Made by a program: the position numbers and the translations under genes. The notes below the pieces were generated by a model that worked only from the letters and a program-made list of their open reading frames with translations, was not told the DNA's origin and made no database searches. A stretch of DNA of 18,713 nt. It comes from Xenorhabdus eapokensis (GTDB lineage: Bacteria > Pseudomonadota > Gammaproteobacteria > Enterobacterales > Enterobacteriaceae). The first letter of the stretch is position 1. Each line of letters opens with the position of its first letter. This document shows, piece after piece, positions 1,389 through 14,123 of the stretch. The stretch spans positions 1 through 18,713 of the forward strand of contig NZ_MKGQ01000033.1 in the NCBI RefSeq assembly GCF_001908105.1. Direction: 5' to 3'.

Positions 1389-2363
1389 TTATTCCGGCCT
1401 GAAACGACGTAAATGCTGAATTGTCGCAAACCATGCAGCAATCCAACCAATCATACCCGAAATAAGCACTAATAAGAGTGATTCATCCCACTCCAAACCA
1501 TGCAATATAAAACGTGTTCCGAAAATACTTGCCACTTCCGTGACTACATTGGAAAGTTTCCACACTAGCAGGGAGGAGAGGATCAAGGAAAATACTGCGC
1601 CCAAAATCCCTAATAAGGCTCCGCCATTGAGGAAAGGACGCAAAATAAAGCCATCCGTTGCCCCAATCAGCTTCATGACGTTAATCGTCTCACGACGGCT
1701 AAAGATACTCAGCCGGACACTATTTCCAATGACCAAGAGCAGCGCAACCACCATCAAGATACCTATCACGGCAGCAATTCTGCCAACGAGGTCAGCCAAT
1801 GCGGTCAGGCGGGCGAACCAACTATCATCCATCCTGACTTCTTCGATACCTTTAATCCGTGCAACTTGATCGCGCAATGTTGTTAGCGCCTGAGAGTCCT
1901 GGAAATTCAGTTTAGGAGAGACTATAGCGACTGCCGGCAGAGGGTTTTCCTCCAGCAGATCCAATGCGCTGGCAAAACCTGACCATGCACGGAATTCGTT
2001 TACCGCTTCCTCACGGGAAAGGTAATTTACCGACTTCACGCTATCCATGCCTTGCAACTGATCAATGACCTGTTTGACGCTATTGTCATTCAATGACTTA
2101 TCCAAATAGACCGTGAGTTGTGGGATGGGATACCACTGCATCACTGCTTGATTGACGTTTTTCCAAACGATATAAAACACACTCGGCAAGGTCAGTGAAA
2201 TAGCTATCACCATCACAGTCAGCAACGTTGCCAGTGGTTGGCGGAACATATCGGAAAGAGTACTTTTCCACGCATAACGCCACTGTACACGCCACCCCCC
2301 TTTTAATGACTTGGATTTTGCGGACTGTGTTTTTTTCGCTGAATGACGGACATGCTTAGCCAT
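1389..2363 (-). CDS. ftsX: Cell division ABC transporter-like membrane subunit FtsX
   Basis: This 324-residue inner-membrane protein of the FtsEX complex couples divisome assembly to activation of peptidoglycan amidases through the EnvC family. Four membrane spans are readable at about residues 44-68, 197-215, 248-268 and 295-315. A large periplasmic loop lies at about 70-190 and a basic cytoplasmic N-terminus precedes the first span. The FtsX permease core, with [14 protein letters not shown] after TM2, is intact. The ATG overlaps the end of ftsE by 8 bp, with an AAGGAGG Shine-Dalgarno inside the ftsE 3' end, which points to translational coupling. The protein is somewhat shorter than the 352-residue E. 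coli FtsX, with the difference in the variable cytoplasmic N-terminus. Confidence 0.95.
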
Positions 2364-3021
2364 GATGTCCTCCTTGCATACGTCCCTGATTCAGGGTCAA
2401 GATACGATATTTTCTTCGTTCAATGAGGGCGGTATCATGGGTAGCCATCAGAACCGTCACGCCAACTCGGTTAAATTCTTCAAACAGACGCATGATCCCC
2501 TCTGATAATGCCCCATCCAAATTTCCCGTCGGCTCATCTGCCAACAATACGGTTGGCTTATTTACTACTGCGCGGGCGATACCTACACGCTGTTGCTCTC
2601 CTCCAGAAAGCTGAATGGGGAAATTTTTCGCTTTGTCCAGTAAGCCGACCTTATCCAACGCCGCAGATACCCGTCGACGAATGTCTTCAGCACTTGCTCC
2701 TGAGATGATCAGCGGCATAGCGACGTTTTCATATACGGTGCGATCCAAAAGCAGGTGATGATCCTGAAAAATCATGCCGATCTGACGGCGTAGAAATGGG
2801 ATCTCTCTGGATTTTAGTCGGCTGATGTCATGACCAGAAAACCAAATATGGCCTGCGCTGGGGCGTTCGATACCACAGATAAGTTTCAAAAGTGTACTTT
2901 TACCAGCCCCTGAGTGACCGGTTAAAAATGCCATTTCTCCTGGAAGTAGATGAAAATCCACCCCTTGCAGCGCCTGCCGACCTCCCAGATAGGCTTTACT
3001 AACCTGTTCAAAGCGAATCAT
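2356..3021 (-). CDS. ftsE: Cell division ATP-binding protein FtsE
   Basis: This 221-residue ABC ATPase is the cytoplasmic partner of FtsX and binds FtsZ/FtsA at the division site. All ABC motifs are present: Walker [10 protein letters not shown] (35-43), Q-loop glutamine near 86, signature LSGGEQQ (138-144), Walker B VLLADEPT ending with catalytic Glu163, D-loop, and the H-loop histidine near 195 (ATHD). Its length matches the family (222 in E. coli). It starts 6 bp after the ftsY stop and overlaps ftsX by 8 bp, so ftsY-ftsE-ftsX form one transcription unit. Nothing unusual is seen. Confidence 0.97.
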
Positions 3022-3027
3022 TGATAG

Positions 3028-4791
3028 TTAATCCTCTTGGGCAAAAAGAGCCTCAATAAAATCATCTGCCTTAAATGGACGGAGATCTTCAATGCCTTCA
3101 CCCACACCAATGTAGCGGATTGGGATCTCAAATTGGTCGGCAATCGCGAAGATAACTCCGCCTTTCGCAGTACCATCCAGTTTGGTCAGTGAAATACCCG
3201 TCAACCCCACAGCTTCATGGAATAGTTTAGCCTGACTTACTGCATTTTGACCTGTACTGGCGTCCAGAGTCAGCATAATTTCATGAGGTGCCTCTTCGTC
3301 CAGTTTTTTCATTACTCGAACGATTTTTTTCAGCTCTTCCATTAAGTGAGATTTGTTCTGCAAGCGCCCTGCGGTATCTGCAATCAGGACATCAATACCT
3401 TTAGCCTTGGCTGACTGGATGGCGTCAAAAATCACGGACGCTGAATCTGCCCCCGTATGTTGGGAAATCACAGGGATTTTGTTGCGATCTCCCCAAACCT
3501 GTAACTGCTCTACCGCGGCTGCACGGAAGGTATCCCCAGCCGCCAGCATGACGGATTTGCCCTGGGACTGATATTGACGCGCCAATTTACCAATAGTGGT
3601 CGTTTTACCAACACCATTCACTCCCACCATCAGAATGACATAAGGTGATTTGCCTTCGATCTCCAACGGTTTATCAACTTTCGCCAGAATGTCTGACATC
3701 TCTTCTTTCAGTTTAGCGTAAAGCGCTTCCGCATCTTTCAATTCTTTACGACTCGCGTGAGCTGTCAGGTTAGTAATGATCTTACGGGTAGTTTCAACGC
3801 CGACATCGGCAATCAATAACTGTTCTTCCAGCTCTTCAAACAGATCATCATCAATTTTCTTGCCGCGGAATAGTCCCAAGAAACCGGAGCCAAGATTTTG
3901 ACGGGTCTTAACTAAGCTGCGTTTCAGACGAGTAAAGAATCCTTCTTTGGTTGGCCGTTCTTGTTCCTTAGGTAATGCCGCCTGTTCTTCTGCTAAACGC
4001 TGCTGTTCTGCTTCTTTTTCTGCTGCGCGACGGGCAGTTTCCTCCGCCAAACGTTGCTGCTCCGCTTCCTCTTCTGCTGCGCGACGGGCGGTTTCCTCCG
4101 CTAAACGCTGCTGTTCTGCTTCTTCTTCTGCTGCGCGACGGGCGGCTTCTTCCGCCAAACGCTGCTGCTCCGCTTCTTTTTCTGCTGCGCGACGGGCGGT
4201 TTCCTCCGCCAAACGCTGCTGCTCCGCTTCTTCTTCTGCTGCGCGACGGGCGGCTTCTTCCGCTAAACGCTGCTGTTCTGCTTCTTCTTCTGCTGCGCGA
4301 CGGGCGGCTTCTTCTGCCAAACGTTGCTGCTCTGCTTCTTCTGCTGCTGCGCGACGGGTAGCTTCTTCCGCTAAACGCTGCTGCTCTGCTTCTTTTTCTG
4401 CTGCGCGACGGGCGGTTTCCTCCGCTAAACGCTGCTGCTCCGCTTCTTTTTCTGCTGCGCGACGGGCAGTTTCCTCCGCCAAACGCTGCTGTTCTGCTTC
4501 TTCTTCTGCTGCGCGACGGGCGGCTTCTTCCGCTAAACGCTGCTGCTCCGCTTCTTCTGCTGCTGCGCGACGGGCGGCTTCTTCCGCTAAACGCTGCTGT
4601 TCTGCTTCTTTTTCTGCTGCACGACGGGCGGTTTCCTCCGCCAAACGCTGCTGCTCCGCTTCTTCTGCTGCGCGACGGGCGGCTTCTTCCGCAGCGACTC
4701 TTTCTTGTTCAGCTTGTTCCTCTTGCTGTTGCTTATCTTGACGACCAAGTCCAAACCAAGAGAAGAAACCTCTTTTTTTCTCTTTTGCCAT
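3028..4791 (-). CDS. ftsY: Signal recognition particle receptor FtsY with an expanded repetitive A domain
   Basis: This GTPase docks SRP-ribosome complexes at the inner membrane for co-translational insertion. At 587 residues it is longer than E. coli FtsY (497). Residues 1-26 include a hydrophobic/basic start (RGFFSWFGLG). Residues 27-276 form an acidic, almost perfectly repeated region with an 18-residue period. From about 284 a conserved amphipathic segment (GFFTRLKRSLVKTR) leads into the N domain. The G domain follows with GVNGVGKTTT near 390-399, DTFRAAA, DTAGR, TKLDG and the closing GVGEG. All GTPase motifs are intact, so the protein should be functional. Only the A domain is unusual; this region is known to vary among bacteria and to aid membrane/translocon contact. 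A GAGGAG Shine-Dalgarno lies 11 nt before the ATG. Confidence 0.96.
   Translation of the reverse strand: MAKEKKRGFFSWFGLGRQDKQQQEEQAEQERVAAEEAARRAAEEAEQQRLAEETARRAAEKEAEQQRLAEEAARRAAAEEAEQQRLAEEAARRAAEEEAEQQRLAEETARRAAEKEAEQQRLAEETARRAAEKEAEQQRLAEEATRRAAAEEAEQQRLAEEAARRAAEEEAEQQRLAEEAARRAAEEEAEQQRLAEETARRAAEKEAEQQRLAEEAARRAAEEEAEQQRLAEETARRAAEEEAEQQRLAEETARRAAEKEAEQQRLAEEQAALPKEQERPTKEGFFTRLKRSLVKTRQNLGSGFLGLFRGKKIDDDLFEELEEQLLIADVGVETTRKIITNLTAHASRKELKDAEALYAKLKEEMSDILAKVDKPLEIEGKSPYVILMVGVNGVGKTTTIGKLARQYQSQGKSVMLAAGDTFRAAAVEQLQVWGDRNKIPVISQHTGADSASVIFDAIQSAKAKGIDVLIADTAGRLQNKSHLMEELKKIVRVMKKLDEEAPHEIMLTLDASTGQNAVSQAKLFHEAVGLTGISLTKLDGTAKGGVIFAIADQFEIPIRYIGVGEGIEDLRPFKADDFIEALFAQED
4012..4659 (-). 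repeat. In-gene tandem repeat of ftsY: 12 units of 54 bp (18 residues)
   Basis: Twelve in-frame units of exactly 18 codons span FtsY residues 45-260, with consensus AEQQRLAEEAARRAAEEE. A degenerate unit precedes them (residues 27-44) and a partial thirteenth follows (261-276). Units fall into a few types, ending ARRAAEKE, ARRAAEEE or RRAAAEE, and starting AEET or AEEA. The order of types suggests block duplication instead of simple single-unit slippage. Length is always a multiple of three, so copy-number change would keep the frame. The predicted protein structure is a long charged helix. Confidence 0.95.
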
Positions 4792-11152: not shown

Positions 11153-11335
11153 CTATTTTGTTGGCTCCGGCCAAATCTTAGCGATATAACTCAAGCATTC
11201 TTCTTTCGTTCCTGTTCTGCCGATTGCCATCCATCCCATCGGGATTTCATACTCAACTGGCCAGACTGAATACTGCTTTTTACCATTCATAACGATCATC
11301 CACTTCATGGCATCGTTTCCGGTTAACCGTTCCAT
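11153..11335 (-). CDS. MbtH-like protein (NRPS adenylation-domain partner)
   Basis: This 60-residue protein belongs to the MbtH-like family, small cytoplasmic proteins that bind the N-terminal core of NRPS adenylation domains and often are needed for their solubility or activity. The family pattern is visible: NGKKQYSVWP, then PMGW, G.TKEECLSYI and IWPEPTK. The conserved tryptophans sit near residues 25, 35 and 55. The start is well supported by AGGGAGG 7 nt before the ATG. That ATG lies inside the 3' end of the NRPS-like gene (13-bp overlap), so the two are translationally coupled. It is slightly shorter at the N-terminus than typical members (about 62-75 residues). Because the NRPS partner is internally deleted, this protein may serve another synthetase elsewhere in the genome. 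Confidence 0.9.
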   Translation of the reverse strand: MERLTGNDAMKWMIVMNGKKQYSVWPVEYEIPMGWMAIGRTGTKEECLSYIAKIWPEPTK

Positions 11336-13383
11336 GATACAACCTCCCTTTTGAAACGTTCTGACAGGGTAGCCGGTAAGAATCCCGTACCGATCAGGTA
11401 ACGCAATACCTGATGGACGTATTCAGCCGTAATTGTCGGGCAACGGATATGACTTCCCGCTAACCCCGCCAGCGTATTTTTCAGTTCCAATTCAGGACGG
11501 AGTTCATCAGCATAAGCCGGATCTAGTGCACAATAAGGTCTTTCAGTTATATCCCTGATCAGTGGGATTAAGGGATACAATGGATGAGTATCATCTAGCG
11601 CCAGGATTTTATCTTTACCCTCATTCAATGGCACCGGATGGAGGATATACCCAAAATCTTGCACCCAATCGAAAAATTGCCGGATAGAAACCTGCTCTGG
11701 GTTGAACAGATTAAAGAATTTCCCATTAGATGCCGGCTGTTTGGAGATATGCACCAATGCAGCCGCCACATAATCAACCGGAACGATATCCAGCAATAGG
11801 GCATAGTCGGGATAAAACCCCATCGCCAAATAACCTTTCAAGGAGGCGACCAGATAATCATTGCCCTGTGCCGCCCCTGTACGGGTATGTCCGAGGATCA
11901 GTCCTGGCCGGTAAATACTGACGGGAACGCCCCTTTGACGGGCAATATTAATGCTCCCTTCAGATACCCATTTACTGCCTGAATAACCGGAAGGATCACA
12001 AACCGACTCACTCATGGCACGATCATCTTCCCTATAAGGACGAGGCGACTGCGTGGCATACAGTGCGTTTACAGAAGAGACATAGTGAAAATGTTTCAAG
12101 CGCACGGTACAGGCCAGCTCCAACGCTGTTCGAGTACCATCAACGTTGATGCTTTTCAAGGCACTATAAGGATAGATGAAATTAACCAACGCTCCGTTGT
12201 GGTAAATAACATCAACCTCTTCTGCCAGTTGTCTCCATGACTCCGGTAACAAACCAAAACGCGGCTGTCCCAAATCACCGATGATAAAATCGACAATCGT
12301 GATACTGGTGTCTGGAATAGGGCCATCCAGTTGAACTTTATCACCTTTTTTCATACAAAACGCCGTTGACCAAATGGTTGTTTCTGTTGGGCCATAGACG
12401 TTCCATAATGTGCCTCCGGTAGCTGTCAATTGATCTGCCAGATCTTGTGACAATGCCTCCCCTCCGCAAAGCATGCCCATTTCCGGGCGAGGTTTCCATC
12501 CCGCATTCAAGGCCATTGACCAGGTAACCGGTGTTGCCTGGGCGAAAGTTAACTGCGGATTTGACAGTATTTCAGACAGCGCCATTGCATCACGTTGGAT
12601 GTCGATTGAAGCGATGTAGATACTGCCACCATGCACTACGGTTAGCAGCAATTCCAGGACTGAGATATCAAAAGAGAACGTAGTCAATGCCAACATCTGG
12701 TCATGCTGGCGGATTGATAACAGCTTGCCAAATCCACATAGGCAAGCAGCCAGATTGTCATGTTGAACTTGCACTGCTTTTGGCAACCCGGTAGAGCCAG
12801 AAGTGAACATCACATAAGCCGGATGATCACCCAACACAGGGATATCAATACGCTCTACTGTTTCAGCTTTGGCTGTCCTCTTTAAAAGAGTCTTCATGGG
12901 AATGAATGTTGATGCTTTAAGCCCCGCCGAGACTGTATCATCAGACACCAAAATACTTTTCGGCAGACGAGCGAGAATATCGTTTAAGCGTTTTTCTGGC
13001 ATCATGGTGTTCAAGGGGATATACACGGCTCCAATTCGCCAAATAGCCTGCATGGTGACAAACCATGAAACACTTCGCTGGGCCGCAATAGCAACATTGC
13101 TGCCCATTTTGGCACCGTAGTGAAGCAAAACATGTGCCGCATTCTCAATACGTTGATCCAATTGACCAAATGTCAGCGTTTCATGAGGATCAGAAACCGC
13201 TATCTCATTAGGTATACCTTTTGCCAACTTAGCTAACCGAGAAGGAACGTTCTCAAACCACGGTTCTAGTTCTGCTGTCATATAACTGATATTACAATTA
13301 AATTCAGGTTCAACAGCAGAGGATTTTTTTTGCCCAGTAGTAAATGCTGTGTGTAATATTGCCTTGTGTGTGTAAGTATTCAT
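11323..13383 (-). CDS. NRPS-like adenylation/thioester-reductase protein with an in-frame internal deletion
   Basis: This 686-residue product (from the ATG at 13383) resembles monomodular A-T-R enzymes that activate an acid, load it on a carrier and release it reductively as an aldehyde. Adenylation motifs A2 (IGAVYIPLN), A3 (AYVMFTSGSTGLPKAV), A4 (FSFDISVLELL) and A5 (NVYGPTETTIWS) are clear. After ...DTSITIVD, near 12289, the sequence jumps to FIIGDLGQPRFGL, the interior of a reductase domain. Motifs A6-A10 including the catalytic lysine, the carrier domain with its phosphopantetheine serine, and the reductase TGxxGFxG loop are missing. The reductase YSGSK (Y-x3-K, about residues 467-471) remains. 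The frame is intact across the join. Catalysis as an A-T-R enzyme seems impossible. The frame is open back to 13482, but GAGAG before 13383 favours this start. Confidence 0.85.
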   Translation of the reverse strand: MNTYTHKAILHTAFTTGQKKSSAVEPEFNCNISYMTAELEPWFENVPSRLAKLAKGIPNEIAVSDPHETLTFGQLDQRIENAAHVLLHYGAKMGSNVAIAAQRSVSWFVTMQAIWRIGAVYIPLNTMMPEKRLNDILARLPKSILVSDDTVSAGLKASTFIPMKTLLKRTAKAETVERIDIPVLGDHPAYVMFTSGSTGLPKAVQVQHDNLAACLCGFGKLLSIRQHDQMLALTTFSFDISVLELLLTVVHGGSIYIASIDIQRDAMALSEILSNPQLTFAQATPVTWSMALNAGWKPRPEMGMLCGGEALSQDLADQLTATGGTLWNVYGPTETTIWSTAFCMKKGDKVQLDGPIPDTSITIVDFIIGDLGQPRFGLLPESWRQLAEEVDVIYHNGALVNFIYPYSALKSINVDGTRTALELACTVRLKHFHYVSSVNALYATQSPRPYREDDRAMSESVCDPSGYSGSKWVSEGSINIARQRGVPVSIYRPGLILGHTRTGAAQGNDYLVASLKGYLAMGFYPDYALLLDIVPVDYVAAALVHISKQPASNGKFFNLFNPEQVSIRQFFDWVQDFGYILHPVPLNEGKDKILALDDTHPLYPLIPLIRDITERPYCALDPAYADELRPELELKNTLAGLAGSHIRCPTITAEYVHQVLRYLIGTGFLPATLSERFKREVVSWNG

Positions 13384-14123
13384 AATGATGCTCTCATTCT
13401 GAGCCCCATTGGTTTCATCATTTTTTGTGATGAATAGAGGCATCAATGCTGGTAGTCGTGATCTTCCAATTTTTGTCTGCATTCAGTATTTTCAAATACC
13501 TTATGTTGACACTAACTGGATCAAAAAATAAATTGCAAAAATTTATTGCGAATTTAATAAATGTATTAATTAATATTAATTTGTAATATTTTGTTAATTA
13601 AACAATCAACTTAAATAAAGCCAATCATTATTTGGAAGACAGAGTGTATTACGCCTATACAATCCGCAACCAAAATCAATTAACATATTGATATTATTGT
13701 ATTTTACTTCAAAAACAGTCATCCAGTCCTACATAAAACCACTATCATGAGCATGAATAACCATTTGTAGTAATATCCATCATTTTGAATTTTAATTTCA
13801 AACACTTTATTTATAACTGCGTTATAAAAAACGCAAAGCATGTAAATAAAAAATAAATTACATGAGAAAATGAGAATGTTATTTAAGACACTATTAAGCA
13901 AAGAATACACAACGGGTTAAAAGAAGCAGACAAAAAGATACCAACAGTTATTTATTAAATAACTTTTATAATAGGAATGTTTGTGTGGGTTATATTTATC
14001 TGACTTTTTCATGATGACTACATCAGACATATTTCCCTAATAATAATGAGCTTTTATTTGGTCGAGAATATATACAAACTTTAAACGTGCAAAAAATAAA
14101 AAATAAGCAAAAAGGCTGTTTAT

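Follow-up and report, generated by a model that had tools for sequence, protein, structure and literature searches.

A probably recent, inactivating in-frame deletion in a Xenorhabdus ATRed gene whose frame may be kept for the overlapping mbtH

The closest described systems to the locus considered here are a minimal synthetase, a group of small helper proteins, and a form of coupling between adjacent genes. The ATRed protein of Xenorhabdus indica (xind01729) is a minimal A-T-R synthetase that gives rise to a pyrazine from aminoaldehydes, with phenylalanine as its proposed substrate (PMC7586950). MbtH-like proteins assist adenylation domains and are often able to serve other pathways (PMC7593251). 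Coupling by termination and reinitiation of translation has been linked to overlaps of -8 to +6 nt, and for two E. coli gene pairs a stretch as short as the final 15 nt of the upstream gene is enough (PMC10666635).

The window (the whole stretch of DNA that was analysed, 18,713 nt from Xenorhabdus eapokensis) carries a shortened ATRed gene followed by mbtH, with these features:

13383-11323, minus strand: ATRed remnant, 686 codons plus stop, start ATG at 13383
12289..13383, minus strand: adenylation part kept, codons 1-365, with TSGSTG and YGPTETT present
12289..12295, minus strand: deletion join, the overlap of two aligned blocks, with 1107 bp (369 codons) missing
11323..12288, minus strand: reductase part kept, codons 366-686 plus stop, without the TGATGYLG nucleotide loop, GYSGSKW present
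11343..11349, minus strand: AGGGAGG, a Shine-Dalgarno-like site for mbtH within the stub coding sequence, read by eye
11323..11335, minus strand: overlap of the stub 3' end and the mbtH start, 13 nt
11335-11153, minus strand: mbtH, intact, 60 codons plus stop

The gene shares with X. indica ATRed the genus and, in its intact relatives, the A-T-R architecture; unlike it, the window copy is without a carrier and without parts of both other domains, and its kinship to the X. indica enzyme is putative (PMC7586950). Its neighbour resembles the shared MbtH-like proteins in being a small PF03621 protein beside a synthetase, and in three relatives it is constrained after that synthetase eroded; some MbtH-like proteins are not interchangeable (PMC7593251), and service to a second synthetase is here a possibility. 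As in termination-reinitiation coupling, the stop of the first frame lies within the beginning of the second gene, and a short upstream 3' end can suffice (PMC10666635); unlike in the usual case, the upstream gene of this putatively coupled pair is presumably dead, and the two genes share 13 nt where 4 or 1 is common.

The remnant protein (P0001) has 686 aa, and an alternative in-frame ATG upstream, at 13482, would extend it to 719 aa. In this longer form Pfam places AMP-binding at residues 87-398 (profile positions 5-357 of 384) and NAD_binding_4 at 397-575 (profile positions 63-257 of 258); the carrier domain (PF00550) is absent from the four Pfam families listed for the window protein at E <= 0.001. 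The adjoining product is MbtH-like (PF03621, E 2.2e-16, 59.4 bits against a cut-off of 27). The closest named homologues of the gene are Xenorhabdus proteins. From the translations we take other genes of the window to be rpoH, ftsX, ftsE, ftsY, glpT, glpQ and epmA, which would give the surroundings a chromosomal housekeeping look. A minus-strand ORF at 3028-4791, presumably ftsY-like, contains a 54-bp tandem unit (window 3985-4692, 13.2 copies, 88% matches) that encodes, in the N-terminal region of its protein, a repeat rich in Ala, Glu and Arg. Read by eye, the substrate code of the kept adenylation part (12289-13383) appears to be D-I-L-Q-L-G-V-I-W, seemingly similar to glycine codes. Rfam gave no match in the window at the gathering threshold, and a promoter and terminator scan of the window returned 8 and 1 sites, respectively, no excess over shuffles.

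Aligned with the intact gene of X. thuongxuanensis (L018, the same gene as L001), the window copy falls into two gap-free blocks: nt 1-1095 correspond to reference 1-1095 at 96% identity, and nt 1089-2361, the final portion of which is DNA downstream of the gene, to reference 2196-3468 at 95%. The offset between the blocks is 1107 nt, or 369 codons, and 686 plus 369 gives 1055, the codon length of the intact X. thuongxuanensis gene. In the protein, SITIVD is joined to FIIGDLGQ after codon 365. The preliminary description had proposed, from the letters of the window, an in-frame deletion at SITIVD that ran from the adenylation domain to mid-reductase, cost 350-400 residues and left both the frame and the downstream mbtH overlap in place; the alignment bears this out, with a stop-free frame of 686 codons and an intact mbtH across the 13-nt overlap. 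Short repeats lie at the join, GTCGAT in the left source and GTAGAT in the right, each encoding Val-Asp; the right site reads GTCGAT in two of the intact relatives, L024 and L033, so that the ancestral repeat may have been a perfect one of 6 bp. The genes mbtH, gldA and glpT adjoin the window gene as they do intact copies, and, judged from its sequence, the window gene descends from the ATRed gene that Xenorhabdus carries at the gldA-glpT locus and is an inactivated copy of it.

The deletion removed A6-A10, the carrier domain and the glycine-rich nucleotide loop of the reductase, as the earlier reading had it. The exact patterns TSGSTG, YGPTETT and GYSGSKW are kept by the window protein, and the exact patterns GG[HN]S[IL], TSSGKR and TGATGYLG, found in 23/23, 21/23 and 21/23 intact genes, respectively, are absent from it; among these patterns, we take GG[HN]S[IL] as the carrier serine and TGATGYLG as the reductase nucleotide loop. 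The adenylation domain is incomplete in its C-terminal part, AMP-binding stopping at profile position 357 and TSSGKR missing, and the thioester reductase has no glycine-rich loop, NAD_binding_4 beginning at profile position 63 and TGATGYLG missing. By our own reading of the element list of a structure model of the intact protein, the deleted codons 366-734 encode the last part of the adenylation core and its C-terminal subdomain, the helices of the carrier and, in the reductase, the initial strands and helices. Without carrier, A6-A10 or reductase nucleotide loop, the window product should be inactive. Mean pLDDT is 77.4 for the stub model and 79.1 for the intact protein, and in the stub it falls below 50 at residues 358-365, beside the join; the models show the missing elements and this low-confidence stretch, and are silent on the stability of the stub.

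Between the window gene and L018 there are 23 synonymous and 18 nonsynonymous differences in the adenylation part (omega 0.23) and 27.5 and 24.5, respectively, in the reductase part (omega 0.26); for the same pair, six flanking genes have omega values of 0.02-0.09, and mbtH has 4 nonsynonymous and 1 synonymous differences, 1 of the nonsynonymous ones on the window branch, too few for judging constraint. Six intact relatives served to polarise each changed site of the ATRed gene, and 4 sites stayed ambiguous. On the window branch, the adenylation and reductase parts together took 12 + 10 nonsynonymous and 16 + 14 synonymous changes (22 and 30 in all); on the intact sister branch, the counts were 6 + 13 and 6 + 12 (19 and 18 in all), and the broken copy is not faster-evolving than its intact sister. 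Under neutrality since the split, 69-92 nonsynonymous changes would be expected with the 30 synonymous ones; none of the assumptions tried puts the neutral share of the window branch above about 0.24, and several put it below zero. The window branch thus bears no mark of prolonged decay in its substitutions, so the deletion is recent, in agreement with the first of the explanations that the preliminary description had offered. It is also too young to reveal selection on its own frame. Taken by itself, the statement that the window gene has undergone a recent, real and inactivating deletion is one that we regard as highly probable.

The gene was sought in 30 Xenorhabdus genomes, one per species, with the intact protein as query. 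It is full length in 23 of them, and the remaining seven have an eroded copy; among the 120 homologues listed, the closest 19 beyond the window's own are 1052-1088 aa long. An ancestral short family, the circumstance that the preliminary description had named as telling against a deletion, was considered and rejected, since the full gene is present in 23/30 genomes. In the seven others, the protein search recovered codons 1-565 in G010, codons 521-1054 in G003 and only distant matches (41-52%) in G012 and G025, with no match to the intact protein at E 1e-150 in G011, G016 and G026; the gldA-glpT interval was located in all seven, that of G011 being split over two contigs. The gldA-glpT ATRed locus is one that has been lost repeatedly in the genus. 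Where the gene is full length, its overlap with mbtH is 13 nt in 14/23 cases, 4 nt in 6/23 and 53 nt in 2/23 (taking the start found), and 1/23 has no mbtH. This last is G024 (L069 / L033), which has no mbtH behind its ATRed gene and no MbtH match anywhere in its genome; its ATRed has omega values of 0.12-0.13 against six intact genes, where four other pairs have 0.10-0.14, so ATRed can persist without MbtH.

The eroded copies fall apart in different ways. In four genomes mbtH is truncated or gone. G016 keeps codons 1-99, followed by a scrap joined out of frame, and G010 keeps codons 1-565, followed by an out-of-frame join; G026 has codons 1-80 and 550-581 in frame, the rest not being found. 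None of these three has mbtH at the locus. In G003, codons 1-55 are joined in frame to 520-1054, mbtH is truncated, and gldA lies about 8 kb away. The G003 copy (L052; X. beddingii by L015) has lost most of its adenylation domain and retained carrier and reductase, and there is about 8 kb of extra DNA before its gldA. The other three genomes have mini-stubs with a single frame throughout, of 153 codons in G011 and 101 codons in G012 and G025. Each preserves codons 1-48 at its 5' end and roughly the final 31 codons at its 3' end, and between these lie two short fragments, one from around codons 468-484 and another, longer in G011, that stops near codon 682; none has an adenylation domain, and the 153-codon form has no Pfam domain. 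All three are followed by an intact mbtH, with a 13-nt overlap. The G011 mini-stub protein is also represented by P0121, whose longest contig is 4.56 Mb, and the 101-aa form by P0123, with 7 member sequences. Another protein, P0034 (437 aa, known as protein alone), seems by eye to miss a different internal stretch in frame.

A FastTree tree of five flanking genes from the 30 genomes and the window, 10 of the 30 being without at least one of these genes in the stretch, places the window with G016 (0.997), then with G001 (1.000), next to G005 and a group of G025, G012 and G011 (0.991). Between L050 and L053/L054 (G012 and G011) the flanks differ mostly by 0-2% and the stub and mbtH by about 3-6%, with different stub structures; local recombination or allele exchange at the stub and mbtH has probably occurred in G011/G012, and because of this probable exchange the three mini-stub genomes do not follow a simple tree. 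Elsewhere in G012 and G025, a separate cluster (L043-L046) encodes a C-A-T synthetase of 1071 aa, with 52% identity to the adenylation end of ATRed, and a C-A-T-R synthetase of 1435 aa, with an MbtH match nearby; this cluster might have made ATRed redundant in the two genomes.

Reading frame is where the copies followed by an intact mbtH agree. Their large joins measure 1107 nt in the window, 1257 and 1026 nt in the three mini-stub genomes in common, 396 nt in G011, and 579 nt in G012 and G025, and all are multiples of three, as are small gaps of 9, 15 and 3 nt in G011 (the 15-nt gap, aligned as 8 + 7, was counted as one event, and the 396 and 579 joins are possibly nested steps). A single deletion stays in frame by chance about one time in three. 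At 1/3 each, by our own arithmetic, the probability is 0.004 for 5/5 large joins, 0.012 for 4/4 when the window, picked for being in frame, is left out, and 0.00015 for all 8, although the small G011 gaps may be older than the inactivation. The frame test was conceived after the data were seen, and its counts are small. Among alleles without an intact mbtH, 2/4 internal joins are in frame (G003 and G026 in, G010 and G016 out), and because of these two the contrast between the groups (5/5 against 2/4) is, by our own reckoning, not significant; G010, which has no mbtH, also has an in-frame difference of 12 nt. Avoidance of stop codons in the mini-stubs was a weak test for so few changes, stops arising from only 4-5% of single changes.

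Selection differs between the mini-stubs and the mbtH behind them. Over the stub ends shared by G011, G012 and G025, the ratio of nonsynonymous to synonymous changes is about 21.6:6.4, against 5:8 in mbtH (Fisher p 0.017, on pairwise counts that were halved and then rounded). Over all 101 codons of the G012/G025 stub, omega is 0.83 and 17/23 changes are nonsynonymous, matching neutrality, and for this pair alone the difference between stub and mbtH is not significant (p 0.11). The first 55 stub codons have omega values of 0.51, 0.59 and 1.14 in the three pairs. The ratio of nonsynonymous to synonymous changes is 3.66 in the first 48 codons of the mini-stubs and 1.58 in intact genes, and 2.75 in the last codons against 0.46 in seven intact genes; the mini-stubs look unconstrained. 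By contrast, mbtH is constrained in the three stub-bearing relatives, with omega values of 0.10-0.16 and, without the overlap codons, 4 nonsynonymous and 7 synonymous changes (p 0.002-0.009 against neutrality under three transition biases). This constraint would postdate the loss of the synthetase, because the 1257 and 1026 deletions are common to all three genomes. These genomes have 2, 3 and 3 MbtH copies in all. In the 30 genomes, the locus mbtH is missing or not intact in five (G003, G010, G016, G024 and G026), 4/5 of which have no MbtH match at all; copy number shows no clear association with retention, 11/25 locus-keeping genomes having no other copy.

We hypothesize that the window gene was recently inactivated and that its frame is kept for the overlapping mbtH, an account to which we give, as a whole, a probability of roughly 0.45. 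The 1107 bp would have been lost, probably, by slippage or illegitimate recombination between the short Val-Asp repeats, leaving a remnant that should be unable either to load an amino acid or to release an aldehyde. If the cell still requires mbtH, probably for other synthetases, frame-preserving deletions would be tolerated: translation of the stub would keep the message translated up to mbtH, acting either through coupling at the overlap or by avoiding transcriptional polarity, whereas a deletion that stopped translation early in ATRed would put untranslated message ahead of mbtH. The gene would then erode with its frame locked, with the window near the beginning of this process and the 101-codon stubs near its end. 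That a dead synthetase frame is kept as a translated leader for mbtH, with deletions filtered for frame, is a tentative proposal, to which we assign somewhat less than an even chance. In its favour, the window and the three mini-stub genomes alike have a frame that overlaps the downstream start by 13 nt, and where the frame is broken or its 3' end is gone (G010, G016 and G026) there is no mbtH at the locus. Against it, the 13-nt overlap lies outside the range of -8 to +6 nt, a 4-nt overlap being found in 6/23 intact genes; mbtH has an AGGGAGG of its own; the three mini-stub genomes have further MbtH copies; G003 keeps the frame and yet has a truncated mbtH; and G024 has a full-length ATRed with no MbtH found. 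An occluded mbtH start that requires translation of the stub was considered and is not supported, since the region around this start does not fold unusually in the window allele or in any of the three mini-stub ones (z 0.19 to 0.65).

The window gene could instead be a plain recent pseudogene, in frame by a one-in-three chance, its frame unselected and its mbtH not yet decayed. We consider this a serious candidate, if short of an even bet: the deletion is young, the locus is often lost, mbtH has a ribosome-binding-like site of its own and no occluding fold, and half of the four internal joins in relatives without an intact mbtH are in frame as well. What it leaves unexplained is that all four large joins of the three mini-stub relatives are in frame and that a constrained mbtH lies beside an unconstrained stub. 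Quite unlikely, in our view, is a function for the stub protein itself, for example in binding MbtH or another synthetase through what remains of the adenylation core. The preliminary description had suggested such a non-catalytic role, and the window stub does retain most of that core (codons 1-365), with a mean pLDDT close to that of the intact protein, a prediction that lends weak support because its alignment was built from intact relatives. Binding by this particular stub is thus conceivable; as a general cause, however, binding is not supported, because three relatives keep mbtH behind stubs of 101-153 codons that have no adenylation domain and are seemingly unconstrained, and the pLDDT of the window stub model drops below 50 beside the join. 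A non-catalytic role of another kind, that of a translated mbtH leader, is a better match to the relatives than binding. An assembly artefact, in which the organism would still possess the missing 1107 bp, is very unlikely even though the junction was seen on one contig (P0001, with 2 member sequences), because the join repeat, of about 6 bp, is too short for collapsing an assembly and comparable deletions occur at other junctions of the gene in relatives (P0121, on its 4.56-Mb contig, and P0123, with its 7 member sequences).

Among the matches listed in a literature search that left subscription journals mostly outside, no title or abstract opening described an mbtH kept behind an eroded synthetase. 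If the frame does serve as a translated leader, a dead gene within an operon can have an open frame without any use for its protein, and short 'hypothetical proteins' encoded before mbtH may be leaders. The locus would then offer a natural example of selection on an MbtH that outlasts the loss of its own synthetase, one that bears on how far these helpers are shared. On the plain reading alone, the window would still document that a pathway lost repeatedly in the genus was inactivated here cleanly and recently.
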